64,000 nt of DNA, from assembly GCF_021134715.1 (NCBI RefSeq), contig NC_060022.1, positions 191,001-255,000 of the forward strand, given 5' to 3'. The DNA is from Daphnia pulex. Its lineage: Eukaryota > Arthropoda > Branchiopoda > Diplostraca > Daphniidae. This document shows positions 40,290-44,074 of the stretch, piece after piece; the first letter of the stretch is position 1; each line of letters starts with the position of its first letter. Both the position numbers and the translations under genes were made by a program. The notes under the pieces were generated by a model. The model was not told the DNA's origin. It did no database searches and saw only the letters and a program-made list of their open reading frames with translations.

Positions 40290-41290
40290 AAAGTATAACA
40301 TACTATTAGCATGTTTAAGACAAATAGCCTACTAAGTAGTTTTATTGTATGCACTTCACATTATTTTATCAACTATATTGGTGGAGTTACCTGTCTCAAT
40401 TTCTTGTTTTAGATTGGATTTTTCTCTTGACAAAGGGCCTTTTCAAATTCAGTAGTGGAAAAACTGCAATCAACTGTTCAAACTGATGAGCAGCACAGCT
40501 TGTCGATGTGTAGTACCACATCTTACAGTACTCAACGGCAATAGTTTTTTCACAACAATCACCACCACCAACAATTTATTCCAGACTGTGCAATCCAAAT
40601 ATTACAGTCTGAGAAATTAAATGGAGAATTTCATTAAAATATTCAGTAAATATTAAAAAAAAGGTTAAACACATACACATACAACCTAATGGAATAACTA
40701 TCTTTTTTGTAAATCTAATTATTCTTGTGTATGTTAAAATGTAATGGAGGTGGGAGAAGTAAAACACAGTTCTACCTGTTCTACCACTTAATATCTTTAA
40801 TTAAATTGTACTTCCTTTTCTTTATATTCAGCTTACCATTTCTTAATTACCTCTTTCTTACCCTACATCTTTCAGAAATGACTTAGTATGTAAAAAGGCC
40901 TTAGGCAAAATCAAATGCCATTAAGAGCCAATAATGCACTAACCACTAGTTATTCAATTTAAGAGAAATTTCTTCAGGAGATAAATTTGAGATTGGCAGC
41001 ATGGTGTTGGCAGTCCAAACACTTTATCAATAAATTACAACACAATATTAAAAAATTCTTACTTAACTGTGGAAAACTGTTCTTCTCCCCGACCACAATC
41101 CACATTTCACGGGGCTTTGTACTGCTGTTTTGATACAGCATTAATTGTAAACCGGTAAATCGCCTCTCGTTAGTCGTTACCCGACACCTCGTAACGTGGT
41201 CGCCATATCTTTTTCCAACGTAATGATGAAATCATGAAGATGAAGGTCCACATCGTCTACATGAACAACCTCTCATGACTGACGTGAGAT
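40290..41290. other. intergenic, nothing recognised
   Basis: AT-rich. No supported exon or repeat. Confidence 0.4.
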
Positions 41291-41699
41291 GGAGTACAAG
41301 CTCGACGACTTCGCCATCTAGGGTGGGGCATTTGAGTAAAAAGTCAATCGTTAACGATTTAACGGACAGTTATAAACCGTTAGGTTAGATCTATTGTCAC
41401 GACATATGTCGTGGCGCGACGGTCAAAACTGTCTATTGTCACGACATCTGTCGTGGCAATAAAGAGAAAATTGTCTATTGCCACGATACGCCTATACTTC
41501 CTCTCTAGTCCCTCATGTCGTGGCAATAACACGAATTTTGTCTATTGCCACGACATGCGTTTTCGTACTAAGTTCCACAGAAGATGTTTAGGAAAACTAC
41601 TAAATAGGGTAAAACTAAATGTGAATAATTCCCGCATCATTTTTCTTGTCAATTATCCCGTGAAACTCAACCTTTGTTGTAATCTCCAAATAAAAAATT

Positions 41700-41775
41700 A
41701 CCCTCTCGACGGAGAATCGAACGCCATGCTATCGCATGGTGGCATTCATCGCTGACCATTCGGCTACCACTACTG
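41700..41775 (-). other. tRNA-like relic with A-box and B-box resemblance
   Basis: On the minus strand GTAGCCGAATGGTCAGCG resembles a D-arm/A box and GCGTTCGATTC a T-loop/B box, whose 5-bp T stem pairs at four of five positions. CCATGC-GATA-GCATGG forms a hairpin like a long variable arm. The anticodon region is too short and the acceptor strands do not pair, so this is not a working tRNA gene. Confidence 0.35.
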
Positions 41776-41805
41776 AAATATTCGTGTAAAAATTTTGACA
41801 TATAT

Positions 41806-41958
41806 AACCTAACCTAACCTAACCTAACCTAACCTAACCTAACCTAACCTAACCTAACCTAACCTAACCTAACCTAACCTAACCTAACCTAACCTAACCT
41901 AACCTAACCTAACCCAACCTAACCCAACCTAACCTAACCTAACCTAACCTAACCTAAC
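41806..41958. repeat. interstitial (AACCT)n = (TTAGG)n telomere-type tract
   Basis: About 30 consecutive AACCT units with two AACCC variants near 41911-41930. TTAGG is the ancestral arthropod telomere repeat. Here it lies inside a foldback element, not at a chromosome end. Confidence 0.97.
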
Positions 41959-42260
41959 ATGCGTGAATGTCGAATTTAAAAAAAAATTATGTCGTGGCAA
42001 TAGACAATTTTCGTGTTATTGCCACGACATGAGGGACTAGAGAGGAAGTATAGGCGTATCGTGGCGTGTCGTGGCAATAGACAATTTTCTCTTTATTGCC
42101 ACGACAGATGTCGTGGCAATAGACAGTTTCGACCGTCGCGCCACGACATCATGTCGTGGCAATAGATTTAACCAAACCGTTAACAATTTAACGGACAGTC
42201 AGACAATAACAACACATTTTTTCCTCGAATACCCCCCACCCTAAGTCGTCGAGCTAATAC

Positions 42261-43240
42261 TGGTTCAATTAATTAAAAACAGGGCATTAGAAATTCTGAT
42301 TGAATGACCCATTAATTGTGGCATTGAATAAATCTAAATAATGATCAACTCCTGCATAAAAAAAAAAAAAAAAAAAACAATTGGCAAACAAAATCTTAAT
42401 TTTACTGTTGCTAAAAAGCGTAGTGCTTTTAAAGTCATTATATATTTAACAATACCAGTCCTTTGTAGGGTGCGCATTACTGGGTTGTTATTTGCAATTG
42501 GAATTAGTATTTTACAATATGCGTTACTGTTTACATTTTCCGTGATTTTGGCACGAACGGCTTGCTACCGTGGTATGATTGGTAAGTTGTTACGTTCACC
42601 AAGGTTCTGTTTATTGAGCGAGTTAACACAAAAGTGAATTCTAGATGGAAAACGAAAAAGCATATGTATTGTGCCAGGTTGTTGATCTGGACTAAAAAAA
42701 CAACAACAAAAAAACTCGACAAACTGGTTAAAGGAATTCAATACTTGAGTTCAGTCACTAGTCTCAGTTCATGCTCTTTTTTTGGTAGATTTTTGGTAGA
42801 TGAAACTTGAAAGTAAAATATTTAATTTGTGTCTGCTCATCGCGTGCTGATCGCGATGGTCTGCCATTATAACCAATTTTTCAAAACCTGGTGAGCAAGT
42901 TTTAGGAATATCATTATAATCCCAAAAAAATGTATTGTCTTTGTTTCACCGCGTAGTCTAGTTCCTACCGCTATTCCATTCATGTTTCCCCAATTAATAG
43001 TCTATTAAATTCTTCGGAATATAAGCTTAAAAAAGAAATGTGCATTCCAAAATCCAAATGTTACAAAGCGCTGTATTAGAAGATTAATACAAATATTTAA
43101 AAAAAAAAGGATTTGTAAAATTTCATATGTCTTGTGCAGCATATTTTAAATTTGACATGGCCCCTGAAAACACCTGAGTAACACTACTACAAGGGCTTGA
43201 TAACGATATGGGGGTTGTGGAGGCAAAGATACTGGAAATA
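42261..43240. other. intergenic, nothing recognised
   Basis: Holds a 19-base A run near 42357 and one 98-codon plus-strand frame (42341-42637) with no start context or domain. Confidence 0.4.
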
Positions 43241-44074
43241 TCATTTGGGTAATTCATACTGATTCAAAGGTTTCACTAAAATTTGCCTTGCATCAAATAG
43301 CAACGAAGGATAACCGCTGAGAGTTTTCCCGGTGGTCGACGGAATTGTGACATTGGGGCACGAAGGATTGACAAGACAAAGGATGATGTTCCATCTCCAA
43401 ATCCATTGCGCCATTTGAAAATTGGCGGCTGATGTTAGGATACTCGTGGATTTTGCTTCAGCGACATCTGTATTATAAACTGTTGGAGCATTTATTTCAG
43501 GAATAAAAACTGTTCCGTCCGGAACACCTGGATAAGCAAGAGTTTCAGCGTCTTTTCGAGAGAAAGGTTCGGGAACAAATATTTCTGGTGGGTACTCTGC
43601 TGCCCAGTTCTTCCACATATCGAATTGGTGCGGATCATGACGGAAGGCGGTAAAGAAATTCTTCGGGAATGGCAAATCTACGAAGGAACATTTCGATTTT
43701 TTGTCTGGCTTTTTGTCTGGCTTTTTGTCTCGCTTTTTGTCTGGCTTGGAGGATTTAGGAGTGAAAAGGCAAATAATATAAATCCATTTTTACGCAACTT
43801 TGACAACTGCCAGCCAGCAATTGCCTGAGTGGTATCCGTTAAGGTACCTGAAATCACTGGTAAATCTCGATTGTGTGCGCTGTACCCGACTGGAACGGAA
43901 TAATCGTCCAGGTAGATTTTGTCGGGATTTTCAGAACCCAGAGGAGCTGCCCTTACAGTGATAAAGACAAGCAGAAGAAGGCCAGGAACCTTAATCAAAC
44001 CAAAGTAAAATGTATTTCAATGAATAGAGTCGAAACTAAAATTATGAAAGGAAAATACTGACCACCAACTTCAT
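43241..44074 (-). pseudogene. secreted Cys-module protein, frameshifted copy
   Basis: Exon 1 is 44074-44063 (MKLV, donor GTCAGT). Exon 2 starts at 43989 and continues VPGLLLLVFITVRAAPLG, a signal peptide. The sequence tracks the 44.8-kb neighbour (RDLPVISGTLTDTTQAIAGW) until a run of five T (43787-43791). There the paralogue's LRRKW reading is lost by one base and the current frame stops at 43678. The other frame continues open to 43241 and restores the second module (AQWIWRWNIILCLVNPSCP). An expanded 12-nt repeat (43690-43745) would add Lys/Asp-rich PDKK units and removes the second Cys of module 1. It is either a recent pseudogene or a homopolymer error in the sequence. Confidence 0.7.

Follow-up and report, generated by a model that had tools for sequence, protein, structure and literature searches.

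The telomere-type (TTAGG)n tract of the window, by which we mean the whole 64,000-nucleotide stretch analyzed here (C6:191001-255000), is part of a 791-bp repeat element, referred to as family A, that recurs with its tract elsewhere in the 133,188,837 bp (13 contigs) of genome searched. The full-length copies hold the tract at a common position, are flanked by target-site duplications (TSDs), are dispersed, include near-identical members, and vary in tract length. We consider it very probable that family A is a non-autonomous foldback/Mutator-like element that acquired the tract once and was then spread by a MULE transposase acting in trans. Interstitial telomeric repeats are often interpreted as marks left by the fusion of chromosomes or the repair of breaks; here, their spread by a mobile element is seen at the sequence level in one genome, in a family with clear ends, TSDs and a related empty site.

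Structure of the element and its insertion site

Comparison of copies set the edges of the element in the window at 41383-42173, between two copies of AAACCGTTA, and the 970-bp element at 41294-42260 proposed in a preliminary description was therefore too wide. The ~85 bp at each edge of that interval belong to a different dispersed inverted repeat, referred to here as the outer repeat. The parts of the element and its surroundings are as follows.

41242..41382, no strand: left outer-repeat flank, 141 bp, 93% identical to locus L104; holds the left edge proposed earlier
41374..41382, no strand: left TSD (9 bp), AAACCGTTA, a perfect match to the right one
41383..41564, plus strand: left inverted arm, with terminus GGTTAGATCTATTG and, inside, TGTCGTGGCAATA-type units in both directions
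41546..41804, no strand: core, ~250 bp, common to a second family, B (~72-81% identical)
41805..41958, minus strand: (TTAGG)n tract, AACCT on the plus strand, 154 bp
41959..41981, no strand: family A-specific segment from the tract to the right arm, without counterpart in the family B loci
41982..42173, minus strand: right inverted arm, with terminus CAATAGATTTAACC
42174..42182, no strand: right TSD (9 bp), AAACCGTTA
42175..42405, no strand: right outer-repeat flank, 231 bp, 87% identical to L104; holds the right edge proposed earlier

The arms consist of TGTCGTGGCAATA-type units running both ways, just as first described, and are highly complementary to one another (97% for the pair 41406-41492/42063-42149 and 94% for the pair 41480-41563/41982-42065). 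Folding of the 791-base strand gave -225 kcal/mol, compared to -63.7 +/- 5.2 kcal/mol for 20 shuffles. The long, internally repeated inverted arms and the capacity to fold back are those of an FB-type foldback element. The window copy has a single ORF of at least 60 aa (114 aa, with a GTG start, spanning arm and core), and the element is apparently non-coding. It also has the properties of a miniature inverted-repeat transposable element (MITE), being short, non-coding, multi-copy and bounded by terminal inverted repeats (TIRs) and TSDs, although ten full copies is a low number for a MITE.

Analysis of the tract with TRF returned 41805-41958, with 30.8 copies of TAACC and 97% matches. Daphnia telomerase is reported to add TTAGG (PMC4427308). 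The original estimate of about 150 bp of AACCT repeat was accurate as to length, whereas the repeat is not uninterrupted, since the window copy contains 28 perfect units together with two AACCC variants and its longest perfect run is 110 bp. Similarly, the tract is enclosed by an inverted-repeat element, as had been stated, but sits slightly to the right of the midpoint of the element and not at its exact center.

On its minus strand, the core contains strings resembling the A and B boxes of tRNAs. A tRNA or SINE reading of the core was dropped, as ARAGORN reported none in the window and 14 cores, and no Rfam tRNA match was obtained at E<=1. The matches to miRNAs and snoRNAs were all far under the gathering scores and are expected of strong hairpins. 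About four 12-bp TTTTTGTCTGGC units, arranged in tandem and unrelated to the element, occupy positions 43698-43747 of the window.

A related empty site was found at L104 (C6:319529), which is paralogous and not orthologous to the window locus and consists of the outer repeat without the element. There, TAACCGTTA occurs once, at the place where, in the window, AAACCGTTA stands on either side of the element. The presence of the outer repeat on its own at L104, and the fact that most full copies end at the positions equivalent to 41383 and 42173, led us to reject the whole 970 bp as a single element. Nonetheless, the window copy and the full-length copy L008, both of which have outer-repeat flanks, could conceivably represent a longer form. 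More probably, L008 arose by a separate insertion into another copy of the outer repeat. Of the three occurrences of this repeat seen (L104, L008 and the window), two contain family A, inserted at different points, which could reflect either a preferred target or chance.

Family A copies across the genome

We compared 39 loci, comprising 34 of family A, four with the core only (the family B kind) and L104 with the outer repeat alone. Because 40 of the 90 candidates were scored, the family is larger than the set compared. Ten copies are full-length (629-1029 bp), and in all of them the tract occupies one and the same junction, with 12-28 perfect units (12-20 units in the nine besides the window copy). 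The right tract junction, AACCTAACATGCG, is at an identical position in 10/10 copies and the left junction is recognizably alike in 9/10, the exception being L091 (C3:5590950-5592250). Perfect 9-bp TSDs flank seven of the ten, while the two duplications agree at eight of nine bases in L091 and at seven of nine in L008. In L088 (C3:9721800-9722700) the TSD is offset by 5 bp from the right end, with the extra bases AAACC. The imperfect TSD of L008 and the five extra bases of L088 mark these two as less than clean insertions. Even so, the common junction in all ten full-length copies, their 9-bp TSDs and their differing flanks bear out the earlier proposal that the tract belongs to a discrete element and moves along with it. 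Two further observations concern individual copies: L091 has ~290 bp of extra DNA at the left tract edge, and the AAACC of L088 also flanks the right end of the window copy, as if donor flank had been co-carried.

Outside the tract, identity between copies was 98.3-99.5% for L001-L005, 99.7-99.8% for L006-L008, and 92.8-99.8% over all pairs. L001-L008 are spread over C1, C5, C6, C7 and C8, so that different chromosomes carry copies with as much as 99.8% identity. The tracts of these eight, measured by regular expression, range in length from 71 to 156 bp; the tract of L005 is 71 bp compared to 156 bp in the window copy, yet the two are 99.5% identical elsewhere.

A tract of at least three units was present at 15 of the 34 family A places, namely the ten full copies and five damaged or diverged ones (L089, L090, L092, L095 and L103) with perfect runs of 15-25 bp. 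A genome search with the arms, which had been suggested as a check, came out in favor of the proposal: the nine other full-length copies all have the tract, although 19 of the 34 places with family A sequence do not. These 19 look for the most part like fragments or middle-deleted copies. One of them, L106 (C1:1247650-1248050), consists of arms only, is 89 bp long and is bounded by a perfect 9-bp duplication, TTTGCATTC; another, L093, is a 165-bp candidate with an A-rich duplication containing one mismatch, and a simple scan found no partner duplication in the remaining tractless copies. Since L106 moved without a tract, the arms apparently suffice for movement and can be moved alone, the tract being cargo.

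Mobility class and putative transposase

The TSD length of family A fits that of the Mutator superfamily and its Phantom subclass (8-10 bp, mostly 9 bp). The exact 14-base termini of family A occur 53 times in the genome, 20 of them with surroundings outside the regions read, and the ten convergent pairs within 10 kb are the ten known full copies. Accordingly, no autonomous copy was found between convergent exact 14-base termini up to 10 kb apart, a search that diverged copies could escape. The genome contains 55 MULE-domain matches, 48 of them above the curated cut-off, which indicates that Mutator-type transposases are present. None of the 55 falls between paired family A termini when exact ends are considered, and the nearest match, which itself scores under the cut-off, lies beyond the end of an intact copy, at a distance of 2.9 kb. 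The TSD length and the foldback arms, by analogy with the Tm1 and Tetris elements, lead us to infer that a MULE transposase was the mover.

Drosophila FB elements share with family A the long, internally repetitive inverted arms, the 9-bp TSDs and a variable middle, and we know of no telomeric tract in them. Tm1 of Meloidogyne, which is assigned to Mutator/Foldback and the Phantom subclass, resembles family A in its mostly 9-bp TSDs and composite foldback TIRs (PMC3169594), and one outer terminal motif reported for it, CGGTTAA, is comparable to the GGTTARATC of family A. Tm1 is described as having histone-hairpin, MITE-like and transposase-bearing members, whereas none of the last kind was found for family A, and the main text of the Tm1 paper has no word beginning with "telomer" (PMC3169594). 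Tetris of Drosophila virilis is likewise described as a foldback element with internal tandem repeats and 8-10 bp TSDs for which, as for family A, an autonomous copy was not found, and its authors placed it in Mutator on the basis of the TSD (PMC4079207). However, the tandem repeats of Tetris are its own TIR-220 units (PMC4079207), while those of family A are telomere repeats.

Family B and the entry of the tract

Family B elements are ~600-635 bp long with 140-bp TIRs ending in CATGGCC, and are found at L024-L035, L037, L038 and L084-L087. In the 12 copies with duplications recorded, these were of 7 bp in seven, of 8 bp in four and imperfect in one (L032). The P superfamily, for which TSDs of 7-8 bp are typical, is a candidate class for family B. 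Families A and B thus have a common core with differing ends and TSD lengths, as if the core had been exchanged between transposon types.

The core aligns to the left of the tract, and A/B homology stops at the tract. At the corresponding position family B has CTACCTAACC in 8/12 copies and CCTAACC in 9/12. The A-specific right segment has no match in the B loci beyond short A-rich strings (a match at L036 is to a family A locus). The end of homology, together with the CCTAACC of family B, places the tract at the joint of B-like core and A-specific sequence, beside a 7-bp telomere-like seed.

It is quite possible, if somewhat short of an even chance, that a double-strand break within the transposon, arising for instance when a gap was incompletely repaired after excision, was filled by telomerase or with captured telomeric DNA, and that a B-like core was thereby joined to a new right-hand end through its short GGTTAGG. 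The short interstitial telomeric sequences of primates and rodents are described as sudden insertions at breaks (PMC7215372). The loss of A/B homology at the tract, and an A-specific segment that is unmatched in B, are consistent with such an event; on the other hand, the seed is already present in most B copies, and slippage could suffice. Microsatellite slippage from this CCTAACC seed, with the likeness to telomeres being secondary, is a possibility that we hold more tentatively. It would agree with the presence of the seed in family B, with the strong length variation among copies that are otherwise ~99% alike, and with the damaged copies holding only 15-25 bp perfect runs. However, families C and D and locus L117, described below, are unlike family A outside the tract yet have the same telomere unit, a recurrence that is unlikely by chance, and the only control pentamer tested, (GGATT)n, gave no 30-base matches in the genome. 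Capture is thus favored by the A/B joint and by the recurrence of the motif in other families, and slippage by the seed and by the drift in length.

In the history that we favor, the tract entered the ancestor of family A once, at the joint between the B-shared core and the A-specific right segment. Transposition, with MULE transposase supplied in trans, would then have taken it to other places in the genome, its length drifting meanwhile by 5-bp steps. Both the single entry and slippage as the cause of the length change are inferences.

Position along contigs

Full family A copies (6/10) and family D copies (6/11) are often found no more than 1.1 Mb from a contig end, where a fraction of 0.198 is expected, compared to 2/18 for family B, 2/19 for tractless family A, 2/16 for family C and 0/5 for damaged tract-bearing family A. 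The positions of tract-bearing (42) and tractless (37) places differed (Mann-Whitney P = 0.0014, with copies that are non-independent), while family C compared to family B alone gave P = 0.12 (Mann-Whitney). Enrichment of full copies near contig ends, the mapping of which had been suggested as a check, is seen for family A, as it is for intact D, but with cut-offs chosen post hoc and with age confounded it is suggestive only; better survival of young copies in these regions might be enough to explain it. The idea that the element formed at a telomere was not substantiated: the full copies are nearer contig ends than the tractless ones, but the damaged tract-bearing copies are not.

An unlikely extension of these findings is that telomeric tracts are useful cargo, gained independently by several families and acting as portable telomere seeds; for example, binding of telomere proteins might bring excised elements to chromosome ends, and the seeds might template lost telomeres. 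In nematodes, TALT tracts are reported to serve as templates upon telomere loss (PMC9071541). The movement of L106 indicates that the tract is not needed for transposition, which makes the useful-cargo reading less likely.

It is very improbable that segmental duplication, rather than transposition, spread the full copies. Four of the ten lie within 250 kb of contig ends, and on C6 some diverged flank (70-72%) beyond the outer repeat is common to L008 and the window copy. However, when flanks of up to 1000 bases per side were compared (shorter ones for L088 and L091), matches at E<=1e-5 among the ten full copies were found only for L001/L008, whose duplications differ; no long and well-conserved common flanks were seen, and seven copies have a perfect 9-bp duplication of their own. 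Finally, a fusion or break-repair relic at this locus unrelated to the element, although a usual reading of interstitial telomeric sequences (PMC9693754), can hardly be entertained and is refuted by the multi-copy context, since the tract occurs in the same setting at 15 places, its full copies are TSD-flanked, and the window tract is neither confined to a single locus nor without element ends.

Internal TTAGG tracts in the genome

For each of the five phases, we recorded the starts of perfect TTAGG tracts 25 bp or more in length, and considered those more than 70 kb from a contig end as internal. The phases yielded 8, 25, 28, 21 and 12 starts, or 94 in all, which form 73 clusters; 27/73 are within 70 kb of a contig end and 46 are internal. 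The reversed tract pattern, used as a control, had no matches in any of the six tract searches, indicating that the tract is not due to chance. At least the upstream flank was read for all 46 internal tracts, 17 of which were judged from ~80 upstream bases only. Family A accounts for 13, family C for 16 and family D for 10 (39/46), and inclusion of L117 brings this to 40/46. Spread in repeat elements is thus, as far as the sequences tell, the main route of internal TTAGG tracts here. The tracts placed in none of these are L121, which has a D-like match ~230 bp off, and L122, L123, L133, L135 and L137.

In family C the tract lies beside repeated CACGGCGAAGCCGTGA palindromes wherever that side was read, and the family forms two sub-types (10 and 6 loci) that differ in upstream sequence and have a common downstream side where read. 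In family D the tract follows GATAAAGTAAAGTATAGTAGG, with 11 full matches including one near a contig end (C2:27176). Both are dispersed repeats.

Family C, 16 internal loci: L108, L109, L112-L114, L118-L120, L124-L127, L132, L134, L140, L141
Family D loci: L110, L111, L116, L128-L131, L136, L138, L139, C2:27176

The remaining element, L117 (C2:8780600-8781050), is a 317-bp foldback with CTAAAATGCGCG arms that ends in GGGT and has a 9-bp TSD, AGTATCCTT. Its middle consists of ~150 bp of TTAGG repeat with a few variant units, and outside the tract it is unlike family A. The phase in which tracts end was tried as evidence and set aside: on the G strand, the tracts of families A, C and D and of L123 finish in GGTTA, in contrast to those of L117, L121 and L122, but the independent cases are too few.

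The abundance of interstitial telomeric repeats on chromosome arms has been called a mystery in a recent review (PMC9071541), and their spread by mobile elements is named as a possibility in others (PMC6410037, PMC9693754). In the titles and abstract openings of open-licence papers among the matches listed, we found neither a foldback element or MITE with a central telomeric tract, which may exist elsewhere, nor such elements as the chief source of interstitial tracts. Mammalian short interstitial telomeric sequences are, like the family A tract, short and variable in unit number, but are described as single-site insertions at breaks (PMC7215372), whereas the family A tract was spread by a transposon. 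Element-borne tracts would mislead the inference of fusions by TTAGG hybridization, and would place possible starting points for new telomeres, recombination or breakage around the genome. TRAS/SART and Athena are telomere-repeat-associated retroelements that become inserted in telomeres or attached to them, and MoTeR is also described as a telomere-linked retroelement. In contrast to these, family A is a TIR-type DNA element that has the repeats in its middle.
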